Source: an uncultured Clostridia bacterium
GTDB lineage: Bacteria > Bacillota > Clostridia > Oscillospirales > Oscillospiraceae
NCBI GenBank assembly: GCA_945864305.1
Contig: CAMBAJ010000009.1
Coordinates: 1-44,050 of the forward strand
Length of the DNA: 44,050 nucleotides
Direction: 5' to 3'
Part shown: positions 2 through 22,941 of the stretch, one piece after another
Layout: every line of letters begins with the position of its first letter
How positions within the stretch are numbered: the first letter of the stretch is position 1
Translations under genes and position numbers: made by a program
The notes under the pieces: generated by a model
The model's input: only the letters and a program-made list of their open reading frames with translations
Database searches by the model: none
Told to the model about the DNA's origin: nothing

Positions 2-1081
2 CTCTTTCAGAAAGCTTTCTATGAAATTGTCAAGCAGTGTATAGCTGGCGGCCTTATAGATGGAAAAGCCATGGCTGCGGACGGAAGCTACATTCCAGCC
101 AACGTATCAAGAGAAAGTTGGATCGATGTAGAAATAGAAGTTGAGCAAAGTATGCAAAGCTATCTTGACTCCTTGGATGAAGAACTTTCCAACCAGCCGG
201 GGTTCAAAAAGCCGCCAACAAGAATTTCAAAGAAGCGTCGCACCACCAGCCAGACAGATCCAGACAGCGGCTATATTAATCACGGCAGTAAACGCGGCAT
301 TGGGTATTTGATGGAAGCAACTGTGGACTGTAAACACGGCATTTTAACAGGTGTTGATGTATATCCTGCTAATGAGAAGGAAAGCATCCTGGTCTTGCGG
401 CATTTGGAACGGCAAATAAATCTTGGTGCCCGATGAAACGACTTGCTCTGGATCGTGGATATGAAACTGGCGCTGTTCACCGGGGGCTGGAGCTTCTGGG
501 CATTACCGGATATATCCCCGCGATCCAATTTTCCAATCCACCCGAGAAATATGGCTTCTCCTACGACCCGCAACAGGACGCGTTCATTTGTCCGGAAGGA
601 GTTCCTCTTACATACCACAGGCTAAATTGTAATAAATCGACCGGCAAATATCTGCGCTGCTATCAAGTGGAGGGCGACGCCTGTATGCACTGTTCAAAAC
701 GGCCGAACTGTTTTGACAAGGCTGGAATTCGGCACAGAGTGCTGGCCAGCAGCTGCTATCCAGCATTTTTTCAGAGGGCATCAGCGTGTGGGAACTCCTG
801 AATACCTATCCATGATGCGGTTTCGTAAAATCTGGGCCGAGGGTAGCTTTTCCGTTTTGAAACGGGAACACTGCATTTCAAAGATTCGAAAAAGGGGCAT
901 TCTTGCAGCCACGGAAGAATGCCTCCTTGCTGCCATGGCCCTAAACCTTAAGAGAATGGTAAATGCCATCTTTTTCTATCCCCAATTCCAATGTTCTGCC
1001 GGAAAACCTGTGGATTTCGGCGGAATTTTTGCTTTTGTCAACAGGTCCCTTATCTTACCTTATTCCATTTGGTCATGGTAG
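2..1081 (+). pseudogene. IS1182-family transposase, 5'-truncated by window edge and frameshifted
   Basis: Three reading-frame pieces together read as the middle and C-terminal parts of a DDE transposase of the IS1182 type. The frame is open from base 2 and contains the motif AADGSYIPAN with a probable first catalytic Asp. It shifts near 420-433, runs through a Cys-rich stretch (CxxC-like, 'DACMHCSKRPNCF'), and shifts back near the T6 run at about 766. It then continues into 'EGSFSVLKREH', which resembles the family's C-terminal Glu region, and 'ALNLKRMV'. The start lies outside the window. Two frameshifts make an active enzyme unlikely, although the T6 run could also be a sequencing error. 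The exact IS right end is not resolved; it should lie between about 1000 and 1075, where the IclR fragment begins. Confidence 0.8.
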
Positions 1082-1506: not shown

Positions 1507-1675
1507 TTCCGATACGTCCTAATGCCACGGTTTGGAGTCCGCCGCCTTTTATTCATGATTAGGCGGGTTACCGGTAAATTTTGCTGCTGAAGTTTCGAAA
1601 TCTTCTTTACTGAAACTGCAGTTGTTTGATCTTGTCCTCAATTTATTACGGTGCAAATACGGAATTTAATCATGC

Positions 1676-2090
1676 TTGTATTTTGACCCAAATGCTGATT
1701 CATTCTGGAAATGGAAGCCCCAACGTCCAGGTTATAGTCCAGAGAAGGGCCAGGAGTTCTCCTCGTGTAGGCCAGTAGTCAACTCCAAGCAGTATGCCGT
1801 CAGCAGCCCTCTCTTTTCTGCCTCCGCCAAATACGGCCCGATTTTTTCCTGTGGGAGTGCCTTCATCTCTTTTTTCTCCATCTTGTGCAGTTTATGGCCC
1901 CTGGCAGAGTTCATAAAGAGCAGTCTTCCCTTGCCCCCTGTTCCAAGCAGTTGTTCAGCAGGGTGTAAATGCGTGGACTACCCTGGCACTCAGGCCCTTG
2001 TTTTTCAGTTCAATGTGCTTATATCTTTGCATTCGGCCATTCTTCTGAAGATCATTGTACCCAAATGGCTCCGAGTTATCAGATTGTTAT
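1676..2090 (-). pseudogene. Decayed tyrosine recombinase (integrase) fragment
   Basis: Reading the minus strand across frameshifts recovers a phage/ICE-type integrase. 'GRMQRYKHIELKNKGLSARVVHAF' is followed by 'TLLNNCLEQGARE' (core-binding domain). Next come 'KMEKKEMKALPQEKIGPYLAEA', then 'LTTGL' and, after a one-base shift, 'GELLALLW', which is the start of the catalytic domain around the first catalytic Arg. At least three frameshifts are visible (near 2000, 1915 and 1750). The rest of the catalytic domain, including the HxxR and Tyr motifs, is not recognisable. The stretch 1507-1675 between this and the IclR fragment holds nothing I recognise. The fragment marks an old integration event and is inactive. 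Confidence 0.7.
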
Positions 2091-2483
2091 CAATCGTGAT
2101 TTTGAACGCTCATCCTTTGTTTTGCGGCGCAATTTTTGAGCACATCCAGCTCCGTCCTCACAGTGGATAAGGGACTGGATGGGATGGGAGGACCGGCTCA
2201 GTGTCAGGTGGCTGACCAATTCCCCTTTTCCCCCAAAACCCTCTTCTATCTTGGGTATGCCCTCATTATTTTCTTCCAGGAGTAGGCTTTTGGGGATGAC
2301 GACCGCAAAATTGATATCATTCTTCCAATTTTGATCCCACCTTGGAACTCCCCGAAAGCCTTCGTAACTGCCCGCACTGCGGACAGAAGTGACCAGACTT
2401 GGCGTCACGCTTGGCGCCAAGTCTTTATTGCAGACAGATTGCCATCTCAGTGCATATTTTTTCATTCCCTTTTTTCCTGACAT
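2079..2483 (-). CDS. Unrecognised ORF, possibly a remnant
   Basis: An open frame of 134 residues starts 'MSGKKGMKKYALRWQ' and is preceded by a purine-rich AGGGGGCG about 7 bases before the ATG, which is a plausible ribosome binding site. I do not recognise any domain. There is no signal peptide or membrane segment. The 3' end slightly overlaps the decayed integrase on the same strand. A hairpin-like inverted repeat (2395-2422, arms GACTTGG/CCAAGTC) lies inside the frame, which argues against a conserved coding gene. It may be a fragment of the same lost mobile element or a chance ORF. Confidence 0.25.
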   Translation of the reverse strand: MSGKKGMKKYALRWQSVCNKDLAPSVTPSLVTSVRSAGSYEGFRGVPRWDQNWKNDINFAVVIPKSLLLEENNEGIPKIEEGFGGKGELVSHLTLSRSSHPIQSLIHCEDGAGCAQKLRRKTKDERSKSRLITI

Positions 2484-2503
2484 AGCAACGCCCCCTATGT
2501 AGT

Positions 2504-2538
2504 TATTGTCCTACAATAGGGCCTTTTGTCTATTGTCC
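2504..2538. repeat. TATTGTCC direct repeats with inverted copy
   Basis: TATTGTCC occurs at 2504-2511 and again at 2531-2538. Between them is the inverted form CTACAATAG (2511-2519). The cluster sits between the mobile-element scrap and the end of the PqqD-like gene. It could be an operator for the ORF at 2483, an old element end, or chance in AT-richer DNA. Confidence 0.35.
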
Positions 2539-2582
2539 GTTTTTACTGGAGCAGTTCACACCGGTCTTGCCTTCTGATATTC

Positions 2583-2852
2583 TCACGCTTCGATCAGCGC
2601 TCCAATCTCCCGCAGCTGCTGCAAAAACTCTTCCACATCTTTCAAGGCGGTCTCCTTCGGTACATCGTACTCTCCGCAGACGTGGTCCGCCAGCTCCTGA
2701 GCCGTGTGCTCTTCTGCCAGCAGATCAAAGATAAACCGGCCCACGCCGTTCATGCTGATCAGCCCATTGAAGTTCGCCGCCGCGGTGCCAATGGGAACAA
2801 GGATATTCTCCCCGGCGATCTCACGCAAAATAAATTCCTTTGAAACCTTCAT
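2583..2852 (-). CDS. PqqD-like RiPP recognition element protein
   Basis: An 89-residue protein of the PqqD family, the small winged-helix fold that binds the leader of a ribosomal peptide and presents it to its radical SAM enzyme. 'NGVGRFIFDLLAEEHTAQEL' is the typical PqqD core ('lN.tg..il.ll...t..el'), and the C-terminal 'DVEEFLQQLREIGAL' is the usual final helix. Its length matches stand-alone PqqD proteins. The frame is open further upstream, but the ATG at 2852 follows GGAGGGAAAT directly and the upstream part lies inside the radical SAM gene. It is the last gene of the minus-strand set, 65 bases after the radical SAM gene. Family assignment is good; the role in peptide maturation is inferred from context. 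Confidence 0.85.
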   Translation of the reverse strand: MKVSKEFILREIAGENILVPIGTAAANFNGLISMNGVGRFIFDLLAEEHTAQELADHVCGEYDVPKETALKDVEEFLQQLREIGALIEA

Positions 2853-2917
2853 ATTTCCCTCCAAAGCGCTCTGCCCACAGAACTGAGCGCCACTCTGTGA
2901 TATTCTCCGTGCTTCAC

Positions 2918-4063
2918 TTATTCCCCGGTCTTCCCCGGAGCATCTCCCGCATGTTCTTCCAGCCAATTCCGGGCATATCCCAGATACGCGCGGGTCCTTT
3001 GACACATATATTCCGGGACGGCGGTAAACGCCCCGGACTCCGCATAGCAGATGGCAGAACACTGGTCGCATGCGCTGCGCAATGGGCAGGCGCTGCATGC
3101 AGGCGGTACCATGATCTGCTCCCGTGCGGACCGGATGCTTGTCCAGGCGCTCTGGAAGCTCTGTGTACCGAGGTCCTCTGAGGGTGTGGTCATCATTCCG
3201 CAGGGGCGTATCTGCCCGTCCCAGGTGACCCAGAAAGTGCTGCTGCCCGCGCGGCAGCGAATCCGCTCTGTCGGTAGCTCCTGGCACTCCTTCTCCGGGT
3301 CGGGAACGCTGTTGCCCGCCAGCATCTCCTCCAGTCTCCGGTGCAGCTCTTCCGGCTGGAAACGGAGGCTGTCATAATCGAATTGCGCCTTGGCCGACTC
3401 GTCCGGCGTCATGCGGTCAGCCTGGAAGCAGCCGTGCTCACAGGCCCGGACCGGTGGGAACATATACGACGCCACTTGAATGTGCAGATTGTGGTCCTTG
3501 GCAAACTGATAGGCAGCCGGTAGATCCTGGTGGTTGTAAGGTGTGACACTGAAATTCAGCTTTACCAGGACCCCCGCGGCCTGTAGGCCCAGAATGCTCC
3601 GGACCACCCGCTCGTAGGCCGACGGATCGCCGCACAGGGCTCCATAGGTCTCCGGCGACGCGCCGTACAAAGTGATATTGATGCGGGAAGGCGGGTCCGC
3701 CGCCAAGAAGCGGATCATCTCCTCGTTGATCAATGTCGCGTTGGAGTTGATGGAGACCATCAGTCCCAGTTTCCGGCAGCCGGAATAGATCTCCCGGAAA
3801 TCCGGCCGCAGAAACGGCTCGCCGCCGGTGAGAAGCAGCAAAAGCGTTCCGGCCTCCTGACACTCCTTCGCCAGCGCCAGCCATTGGGCTGCCGTCCGCT
3901 CCCCTGCCCGGGCCTCCGCGTCGTTGGCCCGTTTGTGGATATAACACATGCGGCAGTCCAGATTACAGCGCGCTGTCAGTTCAAAGGTGCCGGACAGGGG
4001 GATGCCCTGGCTGCCGGCCTTGGCAAACAGGTAATTGCTGTATATTTGATAGGCGTTGCTCAT
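2918..4063 (-). CDS. Radical SAM/SPASM peptide maturase
   Basis: A 381-residue radical SAM enzyme with a C-terminal SPASM domain, the class that makes thioether, C-C or epimer modifications in ribosomal peptides. The SAM-cluster motif CNLDCRMC gives C33, C37 and C40, and TGGEP is at 79-83. Eight later cysteines (270, 288, 323, 326, 332, 335, 339, 354) fit the SPASM pattern CX17C...CX2CX5CX2CX3C...C for two auxiliary Fe-S clusters. The start is the ATG at 4063, behind GGAGGAG; 25 further upstream codons are open but lack this signal. It follows the HPr-kinase-like gene by 25 bases and precedes a PqqD-like protein, so the presumed substrate is the 87-residue peptide encoded at 5010-5273. The exact modification cannot be read from sequence. 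Confidence 0.88.
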   Translation of the reverse strand: MSNAYQIYSNYLFAKAGSQGIPLSGTFELTARCNLDCRMCYIHKRANDAEARAGERTAAQWLALAKECQEAGTLLLLLTGGEPFLRPDFREIYSGCRKLGLMVSINSNATLINEEMIRFLAADPPSRINITLYGASPETYGALCGDPSAYERVVRSILGLQAAGVLVKLNFSVTPYNHQDLPAAYQFAKDHNLHIQVASYMFPPVRACEHGCFQADRMTPDESAKAQFDYDSLRFQPEELHRRLEEMLAGNSVPDPEKECQELPTERIRCRAGSSTFWVTWDGQIRPCGMMTTPSEDLGTQSFQSAWTSIRSAREQIMVPPACSACPLRSACDQCSAICYAESGAFTAVPEYMCQRTRAYLGYARNWLEEHAGDAPGKTGE

Positions 4064-4088
4064 ATGGTAACTCCTCCGCCGTCGTGAT

Positions 4089-4946
4089 TCATGCATCCCG
4101 CGCCATGGCCCGCTCCAGCGTCTCCACCGCGCGTTCATCCGGCGTGCAGGCCAGGGCGTAGACCGGCACAGAGGCCGTCAGGTCCAGCAGCAGATTCAGT
4201 GCCATCTGCCACTCCTCCCGTACTACACTGTCCACAAACACATTGGGGCACAGAGCGGCCACAGCCTGACTGGGGGGCAGGCGGCGGATGGTATTCTCCG
4301 GTGCCTGGGACAGGACCACCACCGCTTTCAGCGGCAAGGACACATTGCGGCAGATGCCGCTGGTGCCGGAGAAAGGCACGCCGTGGGCCATGGGGATGCC
4401 GTCCAATCGGACGCCTGCCTTGTCACCGTTGAGAACCTCCGCACCGCGATGGACGCGCCACAGCTCCGCCTGGGTGGATTTTCCGGTGCCGCTGGGGGCT
4501 GTAAAGAGGATGCCCTTCCCCTGCCAGCCGATGTAGGAGGCATGGAAGATCAGCGTGCGGAAGGGCAGCAGCAGTTGGGGCAGGCTCAGCGTGGACCACA
4601 GGCGCCGGTAATCCGTGGCCCACCGCCAATCCGCGTCCCGCACTGTGAGAACGGCCTTTTCAGGCCGGGCCAGGTCGTAGTCCAGGCGGGCATAGGGACT
4701 GGCTCCGGCGTAGATCATTTGGCAGCGTGTCACTATCGGACCCTTCTGCCAAACTTGGCGCTCGGTCTCACAGAGGCGTGGTTCCCCATCCGGTTCGGGC
4801 ACCTCGGGTACTGCGCGGCAATCAATCAACAGGGCTAGATCATCGTCCGTGCATGCAAAACGCTCCATAACCGCGTCAGTTACTAGTGGAAGGTCCGCAG
4901 AAAGCGTCAAAGTTGTCTGGCAGATTTGAAAAGTGTAGCTTTGCAT
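4089..4946 (-). CDS. HPr-kinase-like P-loop protein of the RiPP cluster
   Basis: A 285-residue protein related to the catalytic domain of HPr kinase/phosphorylase. A P-loop APSGTGKST (150-158) follows 'HASYI' (H135). Then come 'AEVLNGDKAGVR', at the place of the HprK 'ddD' loop, and a Gly-rich 'PFSGTSGICRN'. It is not a canonical HprK: the regulatory N-terminal domain and K3 motif are absent. Such homologues are known in RiPP clusters; in paeninodin-type lasso clusters one phosphorylates the C-terminal serine of the precursor. Here the candidate precursor, encoded just upstream, also ends in Ser. The ATG at 4946 has GGAG about 8 bases upstream; an earlier in-frame ATG at 5006 would translate through the hairpin and is less likely. 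Kinase activity and target are inference. Confidence 0.72.
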   Translation of the reverse strand: MQSYTFQICQTTLTLSADLPLVTDAVMERFACTDDDLALLIDCRAVPEVPEPDGEPRLCETERQVWQKGPIVTRCQMIYAGASPYARLDYDLARPEKAVLTVRDADWRWATDYRRLWSTLSLPQLLLPFRTLIFHASYIGWQGKGILFTAPSGTGKSTQAELWRVHRGAEVLNGDKAGVRLDGIPMAHGVPFSGTSGICRNVSLPLKAVVVLSQAPENTIRRLPPSQAVAALCPNVFVDSVVREEWQMALNLLLDLTASVPVYALACTPDERAVETLERAMARDA

Positions 4947-4960
4947 CTTCTTTTCTCCAG

Positions 4961-4996
4961 AAGAGCGCCTGCCCCCTAAAAGGCGCAGGCGCTCTT
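4961..4996 (-). terminator. Intercistronic hairpin between precursor peptide and maturation genes
   Basis: Inverted repeat with arms AAGAGCGCCTGCC and GGCGCAGGCGCTCTT around a short A-rich loop, located directly after the precursor stop codon and before the kinase ribosome binding site. On the transcribed strand there is no clean U-run after the stem. It is therefore better read as an mRNA 3'-stabiliser or partial attenuator that raises precursor level over enzyme level than as a full terminator. Confidence 0.6.
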
Positions 4997-5009
4997 CTTT
5001 AGCCATATA

Positions 5010-5273
5010 TCAGGAATTGATAACTATGGGCATATTGTTATCCGGTGCAGTAAACTTGCAATACTCAGTCGTCTCGAATGCGTTCCCAGCTTCTACACAA
5101 GTGTCCTCAGAAGTGGTAAAAGAATAGTTATCTGCGATGAAGGCTTCCCACATCTCAGCCAATTCTTGATGCGTTTTGCTCGGAAGAATGACATCAATAT
5201 CGCAAGTCTTGCACAGCGTATTGTTGCCAGAGATGGACAGAGCGATCAGCTTGGGTTTCTCATAAGTTTTCAT
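5010..5273 (-). CDS. Candidate RiPP precursor peptide, four Cys, C-terminal Ser
   Basis: An 87-residue acidic peptide beginning 'MKTYEKPKLIALS', the kind of short basic/hydrophobic leader start seen in Clostridial radical-SAM peptide precursors. Cysteines are at 21, 24 (CKTC), 59 and 72. The peptide ends 'MPIVINS', so the last residue is serine. It has no signal peptide, no double-Gly site and no known enzymatic domain. AAAGGGG lies about 10 bases before the ATG. It starts 21 bases after the sialidase-like gene and is followed by a hairpin, then by the HPr-kinase-like, radical SAM and PqqD-like genes. Position, size and cysteine content support a precursor role; thioether (ranthipeptide-like) links to Cys are possible. 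The identification rests mainly on context. Confidence 0.7.
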   Translation of the reverse strand: MKTYEKPKLIALSISGNNTLCKTCDIDVILPSKTHQELAEMWEAFIADNYSFTTSEDTCVEAGNAFETTEYCKFTAPDNNMPIVINS

Positions 5274-5294: not shown

Positions 5295-8200
5295 TCAGCC
5301 TGTCACAGTCCTGGCCTCGCTGGCCACACCGTCTGCATCGTAGGCGACAACCTCGTAGGTCTTGCTCTCAGTGCGCTTGACGGTATCGGTGAACACGTAG
5401 ATATATTCGCTACTCCAACCGCGATCGACCAGCAGAGCGTTGATGGGCTTCAGGGTCTTGCCGTTGATGGTCAGCTCCGCCACATCCGTGGAGGCGGTGA
5501 CGGTCACAGTGACCAGCTTGTTGCGGATCACGTTGATGCTTCTGACGCTGACATCCAGCTTCTCCGGCGTGAACACGGAAGTCTCGGGCTCCTCAGGCTC
5601 CACAGGGGCGGGCGCCATGCGCAGCAGGGAGAGCACAACAGGCTCATCATCAGCGGATACGGCCATCAATTCAACGGTGCCGTTTGTCTTCAGATTGCCC
5701 AGCGCCAGCAGACTGTTTTTAGCCGTGTTGCTGATAGTAACAATACCTCCGTCAGTAGGCGTTACCGCATAGTACATTTCAGTATTGGAGGTAAGCGCCT
5801 GAATCAGTTCACCGTTCACGACCAGATTAGCCGTCGTTCCCTTTGCAACACGTGCGCTGATCTGAACTGTGGTCGCACTCGCAACCTTGAAAGCGATGGA
5901 GCTAGTATTATCCAGATAGACCTCATTCTGAGGACCGCCCATGGTTTCATAGTTGCTCTTCGTCCAATTGCCAGTTGCAGTCTCAGTGTAAGCCGTGAAT
6001 GTCTCGCTATTCAGCGTAGCATCCAACACATTGGTATAGACAGCGCCATATTCGCCCGAAGCAGTATACGCGTCGTTTTCAGTGTTGCGGTAGACACGGA
6101 AACCGTCAATAGTGACCGTGGTGCCTTCCGGCTTTGTTACAGTCGTGGTGGACTCCTCTCCACCGGTGCTATCATCCGTCAGCAACGCATAGGTGGCTCT
6201 GGAGGCATTGTCCAGCTCAGCCAGCGGGCTGTTTCCGTCAAAGTACACGAACTCGACGTCATCGAAGTCCAGACCGTCCGCCAGCAGTTCATCCACCATG
6301 GCGTACACATCGTCCAGGGCGCTGGAGGCGCTGCTGTTGACGCTGAACAGCGCGGGGCCAGCGCTGGCAGCGGAAACACTGGATTCAGCAGTGGTTGCCT
6401 TGCGATAGGCGGCGCGGATGTTCACCGTGTAGCTGCCCTCAGTCAACTCCTCGTGGGCCAGAGGCACCTGAGACAGCGTACCACCACCCACATAGCTGGT
6501 GTCAATGATGATCAGCTTACTGGTCGGACCCTGGAGGAGCAGATAGACATAGCCCGTGTCCGGACCGGCGGTGCCGATCAGGTCGAAGCCGTTGCCATAG
6601 AACGTCGTAGTCAGGTACTTGCTGCCAGTTCCGGAGGTCAGGTCGCTGACCGTCCGGGCGGAGCCCATGCTGTTGCCGGTGCTGCTAGCGTAGGCAATAT
6701 CATAGCCATACCGGATGTCCTGATCAGCGCTCTGCGTACCGCTGATACTGCCAGACTGACTCCACTTCAAATAAGTGTCTTTATCCTTCTCTGTGTTTAC
6801 AGTCAGGAAGTTATCCTCGTACAATACGTTGGAGGCGGGGATGATGTTGACACCGTAGCTCTGGTTACCTGTGAGCGTCAGGGCAACATGATCCGTGCCG
6901 GTCAGCACCTTGTTCGGCGTATAGGTGAAGCTGGTCCCATTGGCGGTAACAGTGCCGAACGTAGCAGTTCCGCTCAAAATTTTAGCTTCGCCAAGCTTAT
7001 TGCTAAGGTTAATGCTCACCGGAAGACCGAAATCGATGACATATTCCGGAACGCTGACGGTGATCTCCGCCACAGCGGATGCATCGGAAGTCAGACTGCC
7101 CGCGCTGTATTGAGAGGAATAGCTGTAGGAGAATTCCGCCGTGTTGGTGATCTTTCCGTCCTTGACCACATCCGCATAATTATCCATGGTCAGCGTCAGT
7201 CTGGTGGTATAGGTATACGTCTTATCAGAGGTGGTAGAGGTTCTCATATCCGGATTGCTGATTCCGTCATTACCGGTCAGGGTATCCGTCAGCTTCTCAT
7301 TGTCATATGTGATCGTACCATAGGTCGCGTTGGTGGCATAGCGGGTCACAACGACGCTGTAGTTGATGGTATCGCCCAGCTCGACCTTCATACCATCGGT
7401 ATAGGTCGTCTCAGTTCCATCATGGGTGATGGACTTGATGGTTTTTTCAACCGTAGGCAGCTTCTGGGCAACGAATTTACATACTGTGGGAGAGCTTGCA
7501 CTGCCCATGCCTTCGTTTGCGTTTTTAGTAATCGTCGTTGCGCCGTCGCAGCCCAGAGCAATCGCGTTGGAGAACAGGACCTTCATCTGGTCGATGGTCA
7601 TGTTGCCCTCCAGCAGCGCCCAGCGGAAACCGTGCAGGGAACCGTTGATCCTTTTCCAGGCGGAATCGTTGTTGCTGGAAGGAATCGTGCTCGTGGCCGC
7701 ATCGTTGAAGGGCCATGCGTCACTGCCCGTGCCGTCCGGATTGCCGTTGGTAAGCGTGTAATACTGATCCGCAGAGCCGGAGATGCTCATGTAGGTCAGG
7801 GCGTAGCCCTCATCCGGCGCGGCGAAGAACATGATGTTGAAGTGGCCCTTATAGGTGCCGTTGCCAGTCCAGTTGCCGGTGGTCACGCCGGTACCGTTGA
7901 CCGGGATCAACTCGCCGCCGTTGATGGAGTAGTAAACGGTGCAGTTCTCAATGGTGCCAATATTAAAGTAAATTCCCTTGGAAGAGATATTGGCATCGGC
8001 GTCACCCTTGGTGACGGTGACCAGCCATTTTTGAGTTCTTACCACATTGCCGTCTGCATCCTTGATAGTGGCGGTGACCGTCACAGGGCTATTGGTGACA
8101 TTCTGTCCCGCAAGAATCGCCTCGTTGGTGTAAGCACCGGCGTTGGTATCATACTTGCCGGCCACGCCCACATAGCTGCTGTCCGCAGAGGACCACGTAA

Positions 8201-10673
8201 CCGTCTGGCCGTCTTCCAGAGTCACAGAGATGGTCTTGGTCTCATTTTCCTTGATGGAGATTGCGGTCCCCTCGGAAACAGTGACGGTATAGACGGTGGT
8301 GTCGGTGGTGACGGTGGTGGTGCCGTCCTTCAGGCCTTTGATGGTGAGTTGACCACCGGACAGTGTCGCGGAGGCAATCGAGCTGTCAGCGACTACAGGC
8401 GCACTGGTGCTGGCGTCCGAATAAGTTGCCGTTCCGCCAACGCCCAGATTCACCGCTTCAGTTTTTCTGTTGACCGTGATGTTGTAGAGCGTACTGCCAA
8501 CCACCACGGAGGTCGTGCCTGCGGATACGCCGGTGAAGGTGATGGTGGTGCTGGGATTGGTCTCAGCCGTGCCCTCCTCAAGTTTAAACAAATACACAGT
8601 ATCTCCGCTGCCACTTGCACCGGCAGTACTGTCCAAAGTAAGATCAGAGATGGTGCTGTTTGTCCACGATGACACGCTGCGGGAGATGGTTACGCCGCTG
8701 GTGCCGGAAATAGCAACCGTTTGAGAGGAGCTTTGTTCTGTAGAGAGGTCATAGCTCCAATTAAACCAACTACGGGTCGCCGTCGGATACAGATAGCCGG
8801 TGGTGCCATGGACCGTCCAGGAAGTTCCGCTGCCATCGAAAGTAAAAACGGCATTGCTGTCGGTTGCAATGGAATCAACGGAAATAACGCCGTCAGTAAT
8901 CCTGACCGGGGTGGTGCCACCGGAGCTGGTCAGCGCATAGGCGTTGCCGGAATTGGCGCTGACGATCAGATACTGGTCATCAGCAGTAATGCCGCTGACG
9001 CCGTTGGTGACCAGCTGCCATTCCTTCGTAGAAGTTACTCCATCTGTACCAACCACATCTACCGTGGCAATACTGGTGTTCAGGCCATCGCCGGTATAGC
9101 TGCTTTTGTAGTTGCCGGTCTCGTCGGTCACAGTCTTCTCCTCGCCCACGGTGAGGTCGATACCCTCGGTGCCAGTGTACTCCCCGACATCAGAACCGGA
9201 TTCGCCGCCGGATTCACCGCCGGATTCACCGCCGGAATCAGCCGTCAGGCCCAGATCATAGGTGGCATAGGACATGGTGTAATAGCAATTACTACCCGTA
9301 CCCCAGGCGCTCTCAGAATCTTCGTACAGGATGGCGACCTTGCCATCGGACAGTTCCGTCAGGCAGGAGTACATGAACTGGTTGTCATTAGATGTAACGG
9401 AGATTGCCTTATCACTCTGCCAGGACATGGTATTACCATCATTGACATAGCCGACGAAAATCTTGCCGTTCAGACGGGCACTGCCTCTGCTGATGTTAGA
9501 GCCAGTCTCATTGGGGCCGGTGGGGCAGGAGACCAGAATAACCTGCTTACCGTCCACAAGCCGGGAGTAAGAAATGGCAGAAATCTGCGTGTTGGAGTTG
9601 GTATCAATACCGGTATTCACAGCGCTGTCCCAACCGTTTGTCCAGGAGTAATCTGCATAGTACAGCTTGGAATTGCCGTTGCGATAGAAGAACCGCAGGG
9701 TGCCGTCCTCCAGCTCCACTACAGCGGACTCAGAACTCCAGGAATCACCGATGAAGTTTGCGCTGCGCTTCCAGGTTTCGCCACCGTCAGAAGAGTAGAT
9801 AAAGCCCATCTGCTGAGAATAAGTGCTTCCATTGTAGCTGTAAACCGGGAAGATAATCTTTCCGCCGGTCACCAAGCCCCGGCCGGGACCTACCAGGCAG
9901 ACCTGCTCAAAGTCGGTCTTCACGTTGGGGATCAAAGTGGGTTCAGACCAACTCTTGCCGCCATCATTGGACTTGGTCAGGTACAGATAGCCGGTCCGAA
10001 CAACCTGATAGGGAGAGTCGGAGAAGAATAGGTTGGAATCGGTGTCATTACCCGTGATGTTGAAGTAGGCATTCACGGTGTAACCCTGGACTTCGTCGCC
10101 GGCGGAACTATAAATTTTGCCATTATCCAGATAGTAGTCGTAGCTACTGTGGTTATTGTTGCTCAACAGAAGCTTGCCATCTCTGTTGAAGCCAACATCA
10201 GTGGAAGGAGCGGTGTTGCCGCTGCCGTTCAGCGCGATACCGTAGGGGTACAGGTCGCAGAGCATATAGACAGTCTTACCATCGGTGGCCAAGGCAGGGT
10301 CAATAAACGCAGTGGAACCGCTGCCATTGTACACATTTTTATTGTCGCCCAGGTAGTTGGCAAAGGTGTAGTTCCAGTTCGCGCCGTTATCGGTGGAATA
10401 GGACACAATGGTGTCCAGACCGCCGCCGTCATAGGTGGTGTTCCAGCGAGCGTCCGCGGCGGCCACCAGGGTGCCGTTATTGAGGGTCACCATGGCAGGA
10501 ATGCGGAAACTGTTGCTGCCGCCAGTGCCCTTGGGGAACGGATTGCCAGTAGTAGTGCCGTCCGCCGGTTTTGTACCCATCTCAACAGCCAGAGACACAA
10601 CGGGGAGCGCAGACAGCAACATTACCAGGACAAGAGCCACTGAAAGCAGTCTGCGGAATCTTTTCTGCTTCAT
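5295..10673 (-). CDS. Giant secreted sialidase-like (GH33) multidomain protein
   Basis: A 1792-residue exported protein. The N-terminus 'MKQKRFRRLLSVALVLVMLLSALPVVSLA' is a signal peptide. Residues about 50-475 form a sialidase propeller: FRIP (56-59, Arg57 of the Arg triad), Asp boxes STDNGANW (93-100), SNDGGKSW (about 235-242) and SSDGGETW (about 294-301), 'SESAVVE' with a candidate catalytic Glu near 315, and a Tyr near 435. A Gly-Glu-Ser linker (about 480-494) follows. The remaining 1300 residues contain Ig-like/Big repeats and beta-rich adhesin modules ('TVTWSSADSSYVGVAG' type). No SLH, LPXTG or other anchor is visible at the C-terminus, which ends 'ASEARTVTG'. It lies 70 bases behind the vWA-SLH gene and directly before the peptide gene. 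Predicted role: release of host sialic acid. Confidence 0.85.
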   Translation of the reverse strand: MKQKRFRRLLSVALVLVMLLSALPVVSLAVEMGTKPADGTTTGNPFPKGTGGSNSFRIPAMVTLNNGTLVAAADARWNTTYDGGGLDTIVSYSTDNGANWNYTFANYLGDNKNVYNGSGSTAFIDPALATDGKTVYMLCDLYPYGIALNGSGNTAPSTDVGFNRDGKLLLSNNNHSSYDYYLDNGKIYSSAGDEVQGYTVNAYFNITGNDTDSNLFFSDSPYQVVRTGYLYLTKSNDGGKSWSEPTLIPNVKTDFEQVCLVGPGRGLVTGGKIIFPVYSYNGSTYSQQMGFIYSSDGGETWKRSANFIGDSWSSESAVVELEDGTLRFFYRNGNSKLYYADYSWTNGWDSAVNTGIDTNSNTQISAISYSRLVDGKQVILVSCPTGPNETGSNISRGSARLNGKIFVGYVNDGNTMSWQSDKAISVTSNDNQFMYSCLTELSDGKVAILYEDSESAWGTGSNCYYTMSYATYDLGLTADSGGESGGESGGESGSDVGEYTGTEGIDLTVGEEKTVTDETGNYKSSYTGDGLNTSIATVDVVGTDGVTSTKEWQLVTNGVSGITADDQYLIVSANSGNAYALTSSGGTTPVRITDGVISVDSIATDSNAVFTFDGSGTSWTVHGTTGYLYPTATRSWFNWSYDLSTEQSSSQTVAISGTSGVTISRSVSSWTNSTISDLTLDSTAGASGSGDTVYLFKLEEGTAETNPSTTITFTGVSAGTTSVVVGSTLYNITVNRKTEAVNLGVGGTATYSDASTSAPVVADSSIASATLSGGQLTIKGLKDGTTTVTTDTTVYTVTVSEGTAISIKENETKTISVTLEDGQTVTWSSADSSYVGVAGKYDTNAGAYTNEAILAGQNVTNSPVTVTATIKDADGNVVRTQKWLVTVTKGDADANISSKGIYFNIGTIENCTVYYSINGGELIPVNGTGVTTGNWTGNGTYKGHFNIMFFAAPDEGYALTYMSISGSADQYYTLTNGNPDGTGSDAWPFNDAATSTIPSSNNDSAWKRINGSLHGFRWALLEGNMTIDQMKVLFSNAIALGCDGATTITKNANEGMGSASSPTVCKFVAQKLPTVEKTIKSITHDGTETTYTDGMKVELGDTINYSVVVTRYATNATYGTITYDNEKLTDTLTGNDGISNPDMRTSTTSDKTYTYTTRLTLTMDNYADVVKDGKITNTAEFSYSYSSQYSAGSLTSDASAVAEITVSVPEYVIDFGLPVSINLSNKLGEAKILSGTATFGTVTANGTSFTYTPNKVLTGTDHVALTLTGNQSYGVNIIPASNVLYEDNFLTVNTEKDKDTYLKWSQSGSISGTQSADQDIRYGYDIAYASSTGNSMGSARTVSDLTSGTGSKYLTTTFYGNGFDLIGTAGPDTGYVYLLLQGPTSKLIIIDTSYVGGGTLSQVPLAHEELTEGSYTVNIRAAYRKATTAESSVSAASAGPALFSVNSSASSALDDVYAMVDELLADGLDFDDVEFVYFDGNSPLAELDNASRATYALLTDDSTGGEESTTTVTKPEGTTVTIDGFRVYRNTENDAYTASGEYGAVYTNVLDATLNSETFTAYTETATGNWTKSNYETMGGPQNEVYLDNTSSIAFKVASATTVQISARVAKGTTANLVVNGELIQALTSNTEMYYAVTPTDGGIVTISNTAKNSLLALGNLKTNGTVELMAVSADDEPVVLSLLRMAPAPVEPEEPETSVFTPEKLDVSVRSINVIRNKLVTVTVTASTDVAELTINGKTLKPINALLVDRGWSSEYIYVFTDTVKRTESKTYEVVAYDADGVASEARTVTG

Positions 10674-10743: not shown

Positions 10744-12972
10744 TCATTTCACGACCTCGCCGCCGGGGGCGGAGTGGGCGGTGGACCAGGCGTGCTCGAA
10801 AGCGGCCCAATCGCGCTGGGGCAGCTTCTTGGTCCACTTCTCCATGGCCTTGGGCTCACCTCTGAGCGTCAGCCAGGTGTAGTCATGGCTGTTGGTGGCC
10901 TCCTGCATGTCGGCATAGAACCAGTCGCTGGGGTTGTTATCCGGCCAGTTGATCATCTTCTTCTCAGGCAGCAGGTGGTCCTCATCGGGCTTGCGGTTCA
11001 GCGCGCGGTTCACGATGACGCAGGCCTGCGCGCGGGTGATGTTGGTGTTGGGACGGAAGGTGCCGTCCTGGAAGCCCTGGATCAGGCCCACGCGGGAGGC
11101 GGCCTCTACGTAATCGGTGAACCAGGCGTTCTCAGGTACATCGGTGTAGTAGCCCTGGTACTCCATCCTGGTGGTCTCGAAGAAGCCCACAGCGATCTTG
11201 GCGAACTGGGCACGGGTGATCTTGCCGTAGGGACGGAAGGTGCCGTCAGTGAAGCCGTCGATGATGCCCATGTTGCTCAGAGTGGAGATAGCGTTGTTGC
11301 ACCACAGGTCGGAGTTGCAGTCAGAGTAATTGTTGGTCTGGCACCAGTATTTGTCGCGGGCTTCGTCCGTCAGCAGACGGAAGAAGATGGTGGCGACTTC
11401 GCCGCGGGTAATGGTGCCGTAAGGCCGCAGGTAGCCGTCCTTGTAGCCAATGATGTAGGAATAGTGATCGTCGGTGTTCAGAACAGAACTGCCTTCGCTG
11501 CCGCCGACGGTATAGCTCAGCTCGGGATTGGGGAAGTCATGCTTCCCGGTGGTAGTTCCGTCGGGGCCGACGGGCTTCAGATATGCCTGCACGTTGGGAT
11601 AGACGGTATGCTTGCCGGTATCGTTGCTGGGATCCATCAGCTTCGCGGTGTAGGTCAGGGTCATCGTCGTGCCGGGATTGATGTCCTGGACCAGGGTCAG
11701 GACAAACTTCTCATTGGTGCCTGTGCCGGCGGTGTATTTCAATTCGGAACCATCGCCAAAGGTCCAGGTATCACCGCTGTTCTTCCCGACGTAGGTCTCG
11801 CCGTTAATGGTCAGCGTGATTGCCTTAGTGGTGACCAGGTTGAAGTTGTAGCTATTCTTCAGGTTGTCCGTACCATTGCCGATCACATCGGTGATGGTGC
11901 TGCCCCTGGCAATAGTAGCGCTGGCGGTGCCAGTGGTAGCAGTCTTGCCGGCGATCCAATTGATGATATTGCCGATGATTTTTTTCGTGGTCTGCCCGAC
12001 CTCTGTAATCTCGTCATTCTCAGAGACGTCATACAGATTGGCGCTGTTGCCCGCCGCGTACTCGACAAGGTCCCAAGCCAGGTCGGTCAGCTGCTTCAAG
12101 CTGGTATCGCTGGAATAGTACGGATAACCAACAACAAGCATTTTGGCGTTCTTGACATCATCCACGGCCAGCTTAGCAGCGTAGACGCCCTTCTCAAAGT
12201 TGGTATAGAGGTTGTTTCTTTGAATCTCTTCCATAGCACCAGCCAACGTGGTTGAGGTGTATGTGTAAAGCCCCGTTCCGACGTTTATCAGTTTTTTGAT
12301 GTCACCGGCGCTTCTCAGCTGCTTGCCGCTACGAGCCAGCTCGGCGGCATCATTGTTCTGGAGACAGATGTCGCCAGCCATATCATTGATGGGATTGCCG
12401 TTGCTGTCCAGACGCCAGAAGCTGCCGCCGTCCGTGACCAGCACCAGATAGCGGTTGGCGGTGGAAACCTCACTGGTCGAAAGCTTGTTCAGTTCCGCCA
12501 TACCAGCCCGGATACCGGCCTCCACGTTGGTGCCGTTCTGCGTTGCAAGCCACACCAGGGCATCAGTAGAAGTCAACTCCACATTGGTGGCGGAGGTCAC
12601 CTTTTTGAGGTCAAACAGGGTGTGAGCCTCATTGGCGAACATGGTGACGCCCACATAGACGTTCTTATCCTTGAACGCGTCCTTGACAGCGTCGCCCCAG
12701 TCCTGAATCGCAAGGTGACTGCTATCCGTCGTCTTGAGCATACTGTACGTGCTGTCCAGAACGAACTCCACGGCAACAGGCTCGTCCGTGGCGGAACCAG
12801 GCGCGGTTACGGTGAGATTGATCTCCGTCTCCCAGTTCGAATTCAGATTCTTGGCGGTCTTATCGAGCTGGATTCCATCATTGGTGGTCACGCTGGCCGC
12901 CAGTGCCGCCGGCATCGTCCCCAGCAGCATCACTGCCGCCAGAAATCCGGCCAAAACTCTGTGTTTGCGCAT
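10744..12972 (-). CDS. Surface protein with vWA domain and three SLH repeats
   Basis: A 742-residue exported protein. After a signal peptide ('MRKHRVLAGFLAAVMLLGTMPAALA'), a von Willebrand A domain follows. The MIDAS-like segment is 'VLDSTYS' (Asp73), i.e. DxTxS rather than DxSxS, and 'LVLVTDGG' supplies the later metal Asp. A middle beta-rich part with 'TMTLTYTAKLMD' resembles isopeptide/adhesin domains. The C-terminus has three SLH repeats marked by 'GYLRPYGTITRGEVA', 'GTFRPYGKITRAQFA' and 'GTFRPNTNITRAQAC', which bind pyruvylated wall polymer. The ATG at 12972 follows GGAGGTAAGAAT; the longer open frame upstream lies in the leader. A promoter at 13094-13123 precedes it. It is probably co-transcribed with the sialidase-like gene. 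Likely role: adhesion at the cell surface. Confidence 0.9.
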   Translation of the reverse strand: MRKHRVLAGFLAAVMLLGTMPAALAASVTTNDGIQLDKTAKNLNSNWETEINLTVTAPGSATDEPVAVEFVLDSTYSMLKTTDSSHLAIQDWGDAVKDAFKDKNVYVGVTMFANEAHTLFDLKKVTSATNVELTSTDALVWLATQNGTNVEAGIRAGMAELNKLSTSEVSTANRYLVLVTDGGSFWRLDSNGNPINDMAGDICLQNNDAAELARSGKQLRSAGDIKKLINVGTGLYTYTSTTLAGAMEEIQRNNLYTNFEKGVYAAKLAVDDVKNAKMLVVGYPYYSSDTSLKQLTDLAWDLVEYAAGNSANLYDVSENDEITEVGQTTKKIIGNIINWIAGKTATTGTASATIARGSTITDVIGNGTDNLKNSYNFNLVTTKAITLTINGETYVGKNSGDTWTFGDGSELKYTAGTGTNEKFVLTLVQDINPGTTMTLTYTAKLMDPSNDTGKHTVYPNVQAYLKPVGPDGTTTGKHDFPNPELSYTVGGSEGSSVLNTDDHYSYIIGYKDGYLRPYGTITRGEVATIFFRLLTDEARDKYWCQTNNYSDCNSDLWCNNAISTLSNMGIIDGFTDGTFRPYGKITRAQFAKIAVGFFETTRMEYQGYYTDVPENAWFTDYVEAASRVGLIQGFQDGTFRPNTNITRAQACVIVNRALNRKPDEDHLLPEKKMINWPDNNPSDWFYADMQEATNSHDYTWLTLRGEPKAMEKWTKKLPQRDWAAFEHAWSTAHSAPGGEVVK

Positions 12973-13178: not shown

Positions 13179-14978
13179 TCAGAACTCCATGGCCATCCGG
13201 CTGGATTCCTCCTCCGACAGCTCTGTGACCCGGCCGTCCATGACCCGGTACACCCGCTGGCAGAGGTTCAGCACGCTGGGCCGGTGGGTGGTGACGACGC
13301 AGGTCTTGTTCGGGCGGTGGCGGATGATATTCCGCAGCACCTGCCGCTCTGTCGCCACGTCCAGGGCAGAGGTGGCCTCATCCAGCAGGAGGACCGGCGC
13401 GTCCTTCAAAATCGCCCGGGCAATGGCGATGCGCTGGGCCTGCCCCTCGGAGAGGCCCTTGCCCCGCTCCCCCACGCTGCTGTGGATGCCGTCCGGCATC
13501 CGGGAGACAAAGTCCCATGCGCAGGCCAGTGTCAGGGCTTCCTGCAATTCCCGGTCCGTTGCGTCCTCCTTCACCATCCGCAGATTCTCGGCAATGGTGC
13601 CGGAGAGAATGGTATTCCCCTGGGGCACATAGGAAAACAGGTGCCGGGTCTCCGCGTTCATCTCCACCTCCAGGCCGTTGGAGGCCCTGAGGTACGCCCG
13701 GCCTCTGTCCGGCCGAACCAATCCCAGGATCAGACGGATCAAGGTGGTCTTGCCCTCTCCCGAGGGCCCCACCAGGGCCACGATCTCTCCGGGCCCGGCC
13801 CGGAAGGCGGAGTCCGTGATCACCGGCGGTCCCCCGCCGTATCCAAAGTCCAGATCCTCCATCCGGACCTCGAACCCGTCCCGGGCATAGGCGTCCAACC
13901 GGCTGCTGTCCGGGATATGCGGCTCCTTGTCCAGTTGGACCAGTTCCCGGATGCGGTGGGCGGAGACGGAGCTGTTGAGAAAAGAGGGCACAAGGCTCAC
14001 CAGGTTGTTGAAGGTGGTGGAGAGTTTCGTGCTCTGGGACAAAAACAGGGTCATGGTGCCGTAGGCGATCTGTCCGGACCACAGCAGGTACAGGCAGTAG
14101 CCGAAGGCGGTGAACTGTACCGCCAATCCCAGGAGCGACAGGGCCGCCTCCGTTTTGATACTGAACAGATTGTAGTCCAGGCTGGCCTTTTTGAACTTCT
14201 CCTGCTGCCCCCGCAGTCCCTTTCCGTAGCGGTCCATCAGGCCGAAGCTCTTGATCGTGTCCAGATTGTAGAAAGCTTCTACCTCAAAGGACATCAGGTC
14301 GCTGCTGAGCCGCTTGACCTCCCGGCTGTGCCTGCGCATCCGCTTGAGCAGATAGCGGGAGCTCAGCAGCAAAAAGGGCGCGCTGGCCAGCGCGATCAGC
14401 GCCATGATCCGGTCATAGTGGAGGATGACGCAGAAGGTCGCCGCGAAGGTGTACAGGCCGATGACGATGCTGGGCAGCCAGCTGATCGCGTTGCTGGCCA
14501 CCGTGTTGACATCGCTGTTGAAGCGGTTCAGCATGTCGCCGTTGACATACCGGCTGAGTTCCAGCCAGTCCGCGTCCAGGATCTTGTCAAAGACAGAGGC
14601 CTGGATATCATTGCTGACATACAGGCTGATCTTGGTGGAGACCCGGGAGATCAGACTGTGGAGAGCCAGGCTCGCCAGGGAAGAACTCACCATGATCGCC
14701 GCCATGACCGCCAGCTTGGAGGCCTGGTAGCCGGTGATGATATCGATGGCGTATTTGCTGGCCACCGCCGAGACCAGACTCAGGGAGGAGCTGGCGATGC
14801 CCAGGATCACATAGCAGGCCACCGCCCACTTGTACCGCCTGGTGTAGGTCAAAATCCAGCGCCAATCCTCCAGAATCTCTCCGAACGTCCCCTCCCTCCA
14901 GCACCGCAGCAGGACGCCCAGAGCTGTGGACTCCAGAAAGCCGGGAGGGCGCCGGCCGTCACGTTCCTTCTGTGCCAT
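13179..14978 (-). CDS. ABC exporter (fused membrane and ATPase domains)
   Basis: A 599-residue half-transporter of the MsbA/peptide-exporter type. Six predicted membrane helices lie in roughly residues 50-330. The ATPase domain has Walker A GPSGEGKTT (404-412), Q453, signature LSEGQ (509-513), Walker B VLLLDE (529-534) and the switch His565. There is no N-terminal C39 peptidase domain, so any leader cleavage would need another enzyme. The start, behind GGGAGGAAG, overlaps the end of the S26 peptidase gene by 20 bases, indicating translational coupling. Exporters paired with S24/S26 peptidases are often found with PqqD/SPASM peptide clusters, so peptide export is the favoured role here. Lipid or drug export cannot be excluded. 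Confidence 0.88.
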   Translation of the reverse strand: MAQKERDGRRPPGFLESTALGVLLRCWREGTFGEILEDWRWILTYTRRYKWAVACYVILGIASSSLSLVSAVASKYAIDIITGYQASKLAVMAAIMVSSSLASLALHSLISRVSTKISLYVSNDIQASVFDKILDADWLELSRYVNGDMLNRFNSDVNTVASNAISWLPSIVIGLYTFAATFCVILHYDRIMALIALASAPFLLLSSRYLLKRMRRHSREVKRLSSDLMSFEVEAFYNLDTIKSFGLMDRYGKGLRGQQEKFKKASLDYNLFSIKTEAALSLLGLAVQFTAFGYCLYLLWSGQIAYGTMTLFLSQSTKLSTTFNNLVSLVPSFLNSSVSAHRIRELVQLDKEPHIPDSSRLDAYARDGFEVRMEDLDFGYGGGPPVITDSAFRAGPGEIVALVGPSGEGKTTLIRLILGLVRPDRGRAYLRASNGLEVEMNAETRHLFSYVPQGNTILSGTIAENLRMVKEDATDRELQEALTLACAWDFVSRMPDGIHSSVGERGKGLSEGQAQRIAIARAILKDAPVLLLDEATSALDVATERQVLRNIIRHRPNKTCVVTTHRPSVLNLCQRVYRVMDGRVTELSEEESSRMAMEF

Positions 14979-15456
14979 GGGGACTTCCTCCCTTCTTCCG
15001 GATATGAGAGATCAAGCCATATGCCCGGCGGAGCTGGGTGCGCAGGGGGCGAAGCCACAGCCAGGGACCCGCGAAAAAACGCCACCAGAAGTCTCCCGGC
15101 CCCAGCCAGGTCCCCTTCCGGCAGACCCGGATGACCACACCGCGTACCTGCTCCGGGACGATGGGGCCCTCGATGTCCTGCTGTCCGTCCCCCACCAGAT
15201 AGTAGTTTCCCTCCGGGTCCACACGGCAGATCCGGTGCATGATGTAAGCGCCATTCCTCCGCTGGAACAGGGCCATGTCCCCCCGCTTCAGAGGGCCCTC
15301 TGGCTTCCGGAAGCTGATCTGATCCCTGCCATGGACCAGAAACGGCGACATGCTGTTTCCGGTAATGGTCAGAGACACGGTCTGCCCCTGTTCCGCGAGG
15401 TCCACAAGCACCGGAAGATAGGTGTTGATATCCACGGTCTTAGGCGTGGGTTCCAT
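14959..15456 (-). CDS. S24/S26-family signal peptidase-like protein
   Basis: A 165-residue protein with the signal-peptidase motif 'ITGNSMSPFL' (nucleophile Ser35), 'RGDMALFQRRNGAYIMHRI' and 'YYLVGDG'. The usual bacterial catalytic Lys is not evident; the conserved His in 'MHRI' suggests the Ser-His arrangement of archaeal/ER-type enzymes. No clear N-terminal anchor is seen, but the segment 'FWWRFFAGPWLWLRPL' is hydrophobic and may be membrane-associated. AAAGGAC lies about 8 bases before the ATG. The gene overlaps the ABC exporter gene. The pair could process and export the peptide encoded at 5010-5273. This link is inference, because two large surface-protein genes lie between them. Confidence 0.78.
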   Translation of the reverse strand: MEPTPKTVDINTYLPVLVDLAEQGQTVSLTITGNSMSPFLVHGRDQISFRKPEGPLKRGDMALFQRRNGAYIMHRICRVDPEGNYYLVGDGQQDIEGPIVPEQVRGVVIRVCRKGTWLGPGDFWWRFFAGPWLWLRPLRTQLRRAYGLISHIRKKGGSPHGTEGT

Positions 15457-18505: not shown

Positions 18506-18515
18506 ACTCCCTCCC

Positions 18516-19322: not shown

Positions 19323-19390
19323 AGAATCTCCTCAGGATTTTGATACGGATATCTGACGCGCCCCCGGTGCGTCAGCCTCAAATCTCAGTG

Positions 19391-20134: not shown

Positions 20135-20154
20135 TCCAGCGTCCTCCAGCGGTC

Positions 20155-20934: not shown

Positions 20935-20980
20935 AGCAGTCCTATCCTCGTTTCTTCAAACCGGTGCCTGTCTATGTGTA

Positions 20981-22879: not shown

Positions 22880-22941
22880 CAATTCAGTCTTCTCCCTCTC
22901 TATGTTTCTATGTTTTCTTCCCAATTCTCAACATTTTTGCT

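Follow-up and report, generated by a model that had tools for sequence, protein, structure and literature searches.

The window analysed here, 44,050 nucleotides of contig CAMBAJ010000009.1 from an uncultured Clostridia bacterium of the Oscillospiraceae (assembly GCA_945864305.1, positions 1 to 44,050), carries on its minus strand a gene cluster that, at a probability we put at roughly 70%, makes a ribosomally synthesized and post-translationally modified peptide (RiPP) that is modified by a SPASM enzyme, is phosphorylated at its C-terminal serine and works together with a giant surface protein; we infer both the chemistry and the partnership from the genes and their conservation. The original prediction, made from the sequence alone, had singled out four co-directional open reading frames (ORFs) encoding a small peptide, a kinase-like protein, a radical SAM/SPASM enzyme and a PqqD-like protein. 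All four are present on the minus strand, and our results support their assignment to a RiPP system with a SPASM enzyme, a RiPP recognition element (RRE) and an HPrK-fold kinase. The interval given for that system, 2583..5273, was too narrow: it omits the giant protein, an exporter and an S26 peptidase (extending to 15456), all encoded on the same strand. The order along the minus strand is S26 peptidase, ABC exporter, VWA/Ig/SLH protein, giant protein, precursor, kinase, SPASM enzyme and PqqD.

Precursor peptides that end in serine

The precursor gene (5010..5273, minus strand) encodes 87 amino acid residues, with a YxxPxL leader (YEKPKL, residues 4-9) and, as translation confirmed, the four cysteines (C21, C24, C59 and C72) and the last residue, Ser87, that had been predicted. 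A search of 5.8 billion proteins identified 33 homologues, in which MKTYEKP, L20, C21, F52, C59, C72 and S87 are invariant and C24 is conserved in at least 90%. The sequence between these positions is hypervariable, as usual for a leader and a core, and we regard these peptides as a precursor family. The AlphaFold model of the window's peptide (pLDDT 54.5) predicts no stable fold. YEKPKL agrees with [Y/W]xxPx[L/V/I/A/F/Y], described in the available text of two reports as the motif bound by the discrete RREs of lasso peptides and of Linear Polyphosphorylated Peptides (LPPs) (PMC13381572, PMC12710340).

The wider family was analysed in a set of kinase loci from Clostridia, the best 80 of 490; of the 80, only 41 extend beyond 5 kb in both directions. 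Candidate precursors were picked solely by (i) an N-terminal leader rule, (ii) a ribosome site and (iii) non-overlap. This yielded 69 candidate ORFs in 63 loci, four of which were discarded by eye as decoys (L028:404, L041:17814, L079:4087 and L090:4675; none with a final serine), leaving 65 ORFs in 61 loci. Sixty of these 65 end in serine (60 of 69 with the decoys counted), and in the remaining five serine is the penultimate residue. In four further loci the precursor gene lacks a recognised ribosome site, and all four of these peptides end in serine. The terminal serine is likewise present in 33 of 33 database homologues of the window's precursor, in 119 of 120 in a second homologue set (the best 120 of 302), and in all nine precursors found in a held-out set of 15 loci (20 regions, from which five duplicates were removed). 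In the controls, the frequency of a final serine ranged from 6 to 20%: 505 of 4398 size-matched ORFs, 17 of 273 ORFs that passed the same filters minus the leader, and 2 of 10 opposite-strand ORFs that satisfied the leader rule. The terminal serine and the cysteines are conserved across clusters, as the original prediction had presupposed.

At least three precursor types can be distinguished, namely that of the window, one with three cysteines and the sequence YCKFT, and one that carries CYHxP or CYNxP and mostly has four cysteines; nearly all members of all three have the final serine. Their leaders read YEKPKLIALSxSGN or YxKPxIxFExF. The core sequence varies across precursors, with leader and cysteines retained; there are four cysteines in 38 of 65 precursors, three in 19, and two, five or six in the others.

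A group of longer precursors (106-138 residues, with a terminal serine and two to five cysteines) was also seen, at L039:1739-2095(-), L048:13443-13820(+), L056:1009-1329(+), L135:11601-11996(-) and L069:96-512(+). No giant gene was seen directly upstream of these (L069 is cut by a contig end), and two lie behind a radical SAM ORF. The idea that the closest relatives of the cluster (L020-L036, L040 and L051) are without a precursor was rejected as largely an artefact of the search range: in most of them, the precursor lies behind a giant gene 6-9 kb downstream. For L020, L022 and L030, still no precursor was found.

A kinase-like protein and a hairpin behind the precursor gene

The kinase-like gene (4089..4946, minus strand) encodes 285 residues from its likely start at 4946, which relatives and a ggag ribosome site place 60 bases inside an ORF that opens at 5006. 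Its sequence matches to HPrK families are weak (NCBIfam ScmC 9.5e-6, the best; HprK_rel_B 0.0091; HprK_rel_A 0.015), and a profile search of the PDB found HPrK/P only at an E-value of 0.18. The AlphaFold model (pLDDT 90.6) was matched by Foldseek to ATP-PEPCK (2.7e-7) and HPrK/P (2.2e-5), and this predicted HPrK/PEPCK fold supports the kinase-like assignment. The earlier description of the protein as HPrK-like is thus borne out by the modelled fold and only weakly by sequence. Identity with the housekeeping HPrK was rejected, the genome carrying its own HPrK on another contig. The kinase and SPASM genes adjoin in 75 of the 80 loci.

According to the available text of PMC9266682, PadeK, ThcoK and PsmK are HPrK-like kinases that act on an extremely conserved C-terminal serine of their precursors, and lasso kinases have the four catalytic residues His-Lys-Asp-Asp. 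H155, K176 and D195 are present in 85 of 85 kinases of our set, a conservation that is partly built in for the P-loop lysine and D195, which were among the kinase patterns used to select the best 80 loci. The second aspartate of the quartet appears not to be kept, the sequence being NGD[K/R] in 81 of 85. An hhalign comparison with the genome's own HPrK pairs H155, K176 and D195 with its H, K and second D, at a probability of only 4% and with an uncertain register of the Asp pair.

The NGD[K/R] sequence in place of the Asp pair, the weak family match and the ranking of PEPCK above HPrK/P by Foldseek would suit a protein that is not a serine kinase, and that serves instead as a nucleotide-binding scaffold or activates the C-terminal carboxylate for attachment to another molecule. 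However, each of the three precursor types paired with the kinase retains the terminal serine, and the histidine, the P-loop lysine and one aspartate are found throughout (the last two partly by selection), so that we consider such a role very unlikely. By analogy with PadeK, ThcoK, PsmK and the LPP kinase LppK, we favour the reading that the HPrK-fold enzyme would phosphorylate Ser87, perhaps several times.

Between the precursor and kinase genes lies a predicted 14-bp RNA hairpin (4959..4998, minus strand; -36.9 kcal/mol, z -7.7 relative to dinucleotide shuffles), which is not followed by a U-run. A folded-RNA signal is also found elsewhere: in 18 of 22 places where the precursor directly precedes the kinase, the 140 bases after the precursor have a z of at most -2 (single-base shuffles). 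Hairpins of this kind are often seen in clusters that need more precursor than enzyme, and this one probably keeps expression of the precursor above that of the enzymes. A sigma-70 scan, which returned 14 promoter-like sites (6.5 expected) and 9 terminator-like sites (10.0 expected), was not used.

A SPASM enzyme and a PqqD-type recognition element

The radical SAM/SPASM enzyme (2918..4063, minus strand; 381 residues; Pfam Radical_SAM 4.8e-22, SPASM 4.5e-4, the latter just under the cut-off) contains both the radical SAM CxxxCxxC motif and the auxiliary-cluster cysteines of SPASM proteins. The core cysteines C33, C37 and C40 are invariant in 18 of 18 aligned sequences. The eight cysteines reported earlier for the SPASM region are all there, and seven of them (C270, C288, C323, C326, C332, C335 and C354) are invariant in the alignment; C339 is not. 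By profile, SkfB is the nearest solved relative (1.3e-24), and PqqE and SuiB are also among the nearest, the similarity extending mainly over the radical SAM core for SkfB and PqqE, and over most of SuiB.

Downstream, the PqqD-type discrete RRE (2583..2852, minus strand; 89 residues; Pfam PqqD 6.5e-18) also matches the NCBIfam lasso_PqqD families (1e-8 and 3.1e-7, both below cut-offs); a PqqD match is present in 54 of the 80 kinase loci. Going by the known YxxP rule, the YxxPxL leader would bind this RRE, which would present the core to the SPASM enzyme, and the cysteine-bearing core would then be modified, likely by crosslinking through a thioether or C-C bond.

A peptide that is phosphorylated and not crosslinked would require the SPASM enzyme to carry out another reaction, e.g. 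oxidation or epimerisation, with the cysteines forming extracellular disulfides. Two observations suit this alternative, the variable number of cysteines per precursor noted above and the lack of a solved SPASM relative that would pin down the reaction. We nevertheless judge it unlikely: the conserved precursor cysteines and the seven conserved SPASM cysteines would be compatible with thioether formation, and the core is the usual target of SPASM enzymes that have a PqqD partner.

Elsewhere in the window's genome, on contig C91, a 67-residue peptide (L153:1096-1299(-)) is encoded beside a PqqD-domain match. We take it to resemble a six-cysteine SCIFF precursor, and the genome may hold a second SPASM-type peptide system.

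The precursor follows a giant protein with a shared domain

The window's giant protein (5295..10673, minus strand; 1792 residues) has an N-terminus that a crude rule classes as signal-like and sialidase-like BNR repeats (Pfam BNR_2 1.2e-14), and its stop lies 21 bp from the precursor start. This arrangement is common: the stop of a giant gene (at least 1000 residues) lies within 50 bp of 44 of the 65 precursors, and for 8 of the 65 more the upstream ORF starts at most 1.5 kb from the end of the locus and may be cut. As a background, a giant gene is found within 50 bp of 3 of 771 other ORFs and of none of 85 kinase, 82 radical SAM, 60 PqqD, 27 ABC and 13 S26 genes. With the window included, the precursor gene comes after that of a protein of 1073-2887 residues in 47 of 66 cases, with a median of 15 bp from stop to start, and 44 of these 47 giants have a signal-like N-terminus by the crude rule. 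For 12 precursors no giant gene ends within 50 bp; two of these 12 have a giant farther off, at distances of 110 and 195 bp, and another two lie at contig ends. A giant also precedes 6 of the 9 precursors of the held-out loci, in three cases within 50 bp.

The Pfam content of the giants differs, comprising BNR, VWA, Big, GH20, Listeria-Bacteroides repeats and dockerin among the window's giant and five others scanned. They share one domain near the C-terminus, which in the window's giant spans residues 1521-1665 (5679..6113, minus strand). A profile seeded with these residues and iterated on the same 80 loci matched 9 ORFs in the first round and 64 in the last, and a profile of the relatives matches the window's giant at 8.5e-31. 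Of 63 ORFs that lie directly upstream of precursors, 54 contain the domain, as do 46 of 46 upstream giants of at least 1000 residues (within 800 bp); its position is usually about 80-170 residues before the C-terminus. In the held-out check, the profile matched in 9 of 15 loci, including 6 of 6 giants that precede precursors.

The domain is also nearly confined to these clusters. The single copy in the window's assembly is that of the window's giant, and in 12 related genomes we found 16 copies in 11 genomes, 14 of them in kinase-SPASM loci (11 by coordinates in kinase loci already part of this analysis, and three beside further kinase-SPASM-PqqD genes, L161, L164 and L165). One of the remaining copies, L163, is cut by a contig end; the other, L162, is discussed below. 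In a Pfam scan of 29 domain members, no family was matched by more than one of them, and a PDB profile search with the domain of the window's giant gave one weak match (P22, 6e-4, 42 columns).

LPxTG-like motifs are nearly absent from the upstream ORFs (1 of 53), and an aromatic amphipathic tail, defined as at least two F/W in the last ten residues, is found in 32 of 53, compared with 56 of 508 other ORFs. The ends of giants such as those of L041, L047, L062, L088 and L089 consist of an acidic or Pro/Thr-rich linker and then a tail such as SIRNWFSSWR, possibly a docking or membrane signal. The window's giant is without such a tail.

In L023-L029 and L031-L036 the gene order is kinase, SPASM enzyme, giant, precursor; the giant-precursor pair thus moves as a unit. 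This order, the direct upstream position of the giants and the near confinement of their domain to kinase-SPASM loci might also be explained if the enzymes acted on the giant, or on giant and peptide together, making the small peptide a carrier or recognition subunit and the enzymes surface-protein modifiers. Such an arrangement seems to us rather improbable, less so by a hair than a non-kinase role of the HPrK-like protein. The YxxP leader, conserved cysteines and terminal serine are found only in the small ORF and not in the giant; just one of the 53 upstream ORFs listed (L044) has a terminal serine; the shared domain has no invariant cysteine or serine; and in some clusters the precursor is not preceded by a giant.

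We retain the peptide as the likely substrate, and the finished product would act together with the giant at the cell surface. A more specific version of this partnership can be offered only tentatively, and we incline to doubt it: the peptide would be a built-in partner that shares a message with the giant and is crosslinked, docked on the shared domain, and fixed to the surface, to a capsule sugar or to the giant itself via a (glycosyl)phosphoryl link on the terminal serine.

Proposed leader removal and export, and relation to known systems

The candidate leader peptidase is an archaeal signal-peptidase-I-like protein of the S24/S26 type (14959..15456, minus strand; 165 residues), for which S35, H74 and D90 were read from the sequence; it matches TIGR02228 sigpep_I_arch (1.3e-4) and Pfam Peptidase_S24 (1.2e-4), both below cut-off. 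Its gene overlaps by 20 bp that of an MsbA-like ABC exporter (13179..14978, minus strand; 599 residues; NCBIfam MsbA_rel 1e-76, below cut-off; Pfam ABC_membrane and ABC_tran), in which no peptidase domain was seen. The S26 peptidase may cut off the leader, as LppS does in LPP systems, and the MsbA-like pump may export the core. Between exporter and giant is encoded an exported-type protein with VWA, pilin-tip-like Ig and S-layer homology (SLH) domains (10744..12972, minus strand; 742 residues; Pfam SLH 8.9e-30, VWA_2 2.8e-9, GBS104-like_Ig 0.0057, the last below cut-off), which, going by its position alone, would be a member of the cluster.

These genes closely resemble those of LPP systems. 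As described in the available text of Popov et al. 2026 (PMC13381572), LPP clusters encode an SpI peptidase, a discrete RRE, an HprK-like kinase, an NTP-transferase and an MsbA-like exporter, and often adjoin capsule genes; the precursor leader has a conserved YxxPxVLxHQxIxFETxxS motif, the phosphates are placed by LppK on Ser3 of the core, and leader cleavage is carried out by LppS, assisted by the RRE. Judged by that text, the window's cluster shares the HprK-like kinase, discrete RRE, archaeal-type SpI/S26 peptidase, MsbA-like exporter, YxxP leader, variable core and capsule-gene neighbourhood. It differs in adding a SPASM enzyme, a cysteine-bearing core, the terminal serine and the giant gene, and its family's YEKPKLIALSxSGN and YxKPxIxFExF leaders do not conform to the LPP leader motif; the term radical SAM has 0 occurrences in PMC13381572. 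The "distinct class" of the original prediction was therefore too strong a term, the enzyme set being that of LPP systems plus a SPASM enzyme.

A further difference from the LPP clusters described there concerns the NTP-transferase, for which a scan of the window's assembly (88.6% complete) with Pfam NTP_transf_5 gave 0 matches. The protein is present in 11 of 12 chosen related genomes, the exception being the genome of L021, and lies within 15 of the 80 kinase loci. In L076, a single ORF (1569-3314(+)) was matched by the NTP-transferase query as well as by that for the S26 peptidase, possibly a natural fusion of two LPP-type functions.

Compared with paeninodin-type lasso systems, as far as the available text on them goes, the likeness lies in the HPrK-like kinase, the conserved C-terminal serine, the [Y/W]xxP-kind leader and the discrete RRE. 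The cores considered here are longer and contain cysteines, one of the four catalytic residues of the kinase appears not to be kept, and the locus has a SPASM enzyme in place of the B2 peptidase and lasso cyclase. A lasso cluster was rejected on these last grounds: there is no match to Transglut_core3, the B2-type leader peptidase family, in the assembly, and Asn_synthase matches occur solely on other contigs, so that a lasso cyclase is not part of the locus. The original prediction had likewise found neither protein here.

The SynChlorMet system (TIGR04248-04251), compared by family names only, likewise includes radical SAM/SPASM proteins (ScmE/F), a PqqD-like protein (ScmD) and ScmC, but the scores are far under the cut-offs (ScmC 25.1/125, ScmD 22.5/100 and ScmE 83.6/400 bits). 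Sactipeptide and ranthipeptide systems also have a SPASM enzyme that acts on a cysteine-bearing precursor, and SkfB is our nearest solved relative; here, unlike there, we find a discrete PqqD, a kinase and a YxxP leader, and the thioether is only putative. In the open-licence literature, judged by title and abstract, we found no description of a system combining radical SAM, HprK and a precursor peptide.

Observations that weigh against a serine-phosphorylated partner of the giants

Several observations argue against a modified peptide that is phosphorylated at its last residue and works with the giant. (i) The link between terminal serine and kinase rests on their co-occurrence in kinase loci; the NGD[K/R] substitution would remove one of the four expected catalytic residues; and LppK, in the nearest tested system, targets Ser3 of the core and not the last residue, according to the available text of PMC13381572. 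(ii) In five precursors one residue follows the serine, the C-termini being GSY, ASV, SST, ASL and SSN. (iii) The small ORF of the original prediction has a counterpart in 65 of the 80 kinase loci; none was found in the other 15, many of which are near contig ends, or in 6 of the 15 held-out loci. (iv) The S26 peptidase and the ABC exporter were matched in 13 and 25, respectively, of the 80 loci, with the limited flanks given above. (v) No giant was seen directly upstream of the remaining 8 of the 12 precursors that have none within 50 bp, or of one that lies behind a radical SAM ORF. (vi) A giant of 2265 residues with the shared domain, at L162:2260-9057(+), has no kinase, SPASM or PqqD match in 19.8 kb and thus no cluster in reach; it may be an orphan, or else its peptide partner may be supplied by another part of the genome, which also holds the L073 cluster.

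Genomic surroundings and distribution

Upstream of the cluster, within 15568-22924 (minus strand), lie five capsule-type genes, including those for two Wzz/ATPase proteins, a CpsB/CapC phosphatase and a Polysacc_synt_2 protein. In 20 of the 80 kinase loci, three or more of the five proteins likewise have relatives; in L028 and L036, relatives of four and five of them, respectively, adjoin the cluster, at 25-42% identity. At the other flank, positions 71-1081 (plus strand) contain shifted-frame fragments that, we presume, derive from an IS1182-type transposase (a Pfam scan of 71-436 on the plus strand gave no match), followed by an IclR C-terminal domain at 991-1506. Transposase-like fragments at the flank fit a mobile history of the cluster.

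Among 400 genomes sampled from the window's family, 74 have a kinase-family match with an E-value of at most 1e-20, some of them partial or distant, and there is none in the 8 other genomes of the window's genus in this sample. The cluster is therefore patchy and probably moves between species. Five kinase matches contain one in-frame stop each (G206:C1, G316:C12, G143:C69, G313:C33 and G052:C3), possibly as parts of decaying clusters. With the window's precursor as a single query, 16 of the 400 genomes gave a match at E-values of at most 0.1, of which only those in the window's genome and in G099 (the genome of L021) are believable; an alignment of the precursors found one further match in 394 genomes of the order (L019, a three-cysteine precursor behind a giant). 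The window's own precursor type is thus rare in genomes. A viral origin was rejected, a precursor alignment finding no relative among viral contigs.

Biological meaning

If our reading is correct, the cluster unites SPASM core modification and C-terminal serine (poly)phosphorylation, which stand apart in the available text of PMC13381572 and PMC9266682, across gut Clostridia. The biological roles of phosphorylated RiPPs are called unknown by the LPP authors in the text available (PMC13381572); the pairing of giant and precursor, together with the shared domain, provides a concrete candidate role for phosphorylated RiPPs. Should the more tentative model of a built-in partner also hold, it would amount to a sortase-free decoration or anchoring of giant surface proteins in gut Clostridia, in which a RiPP would make the connection and the new domain would act as its receptor.

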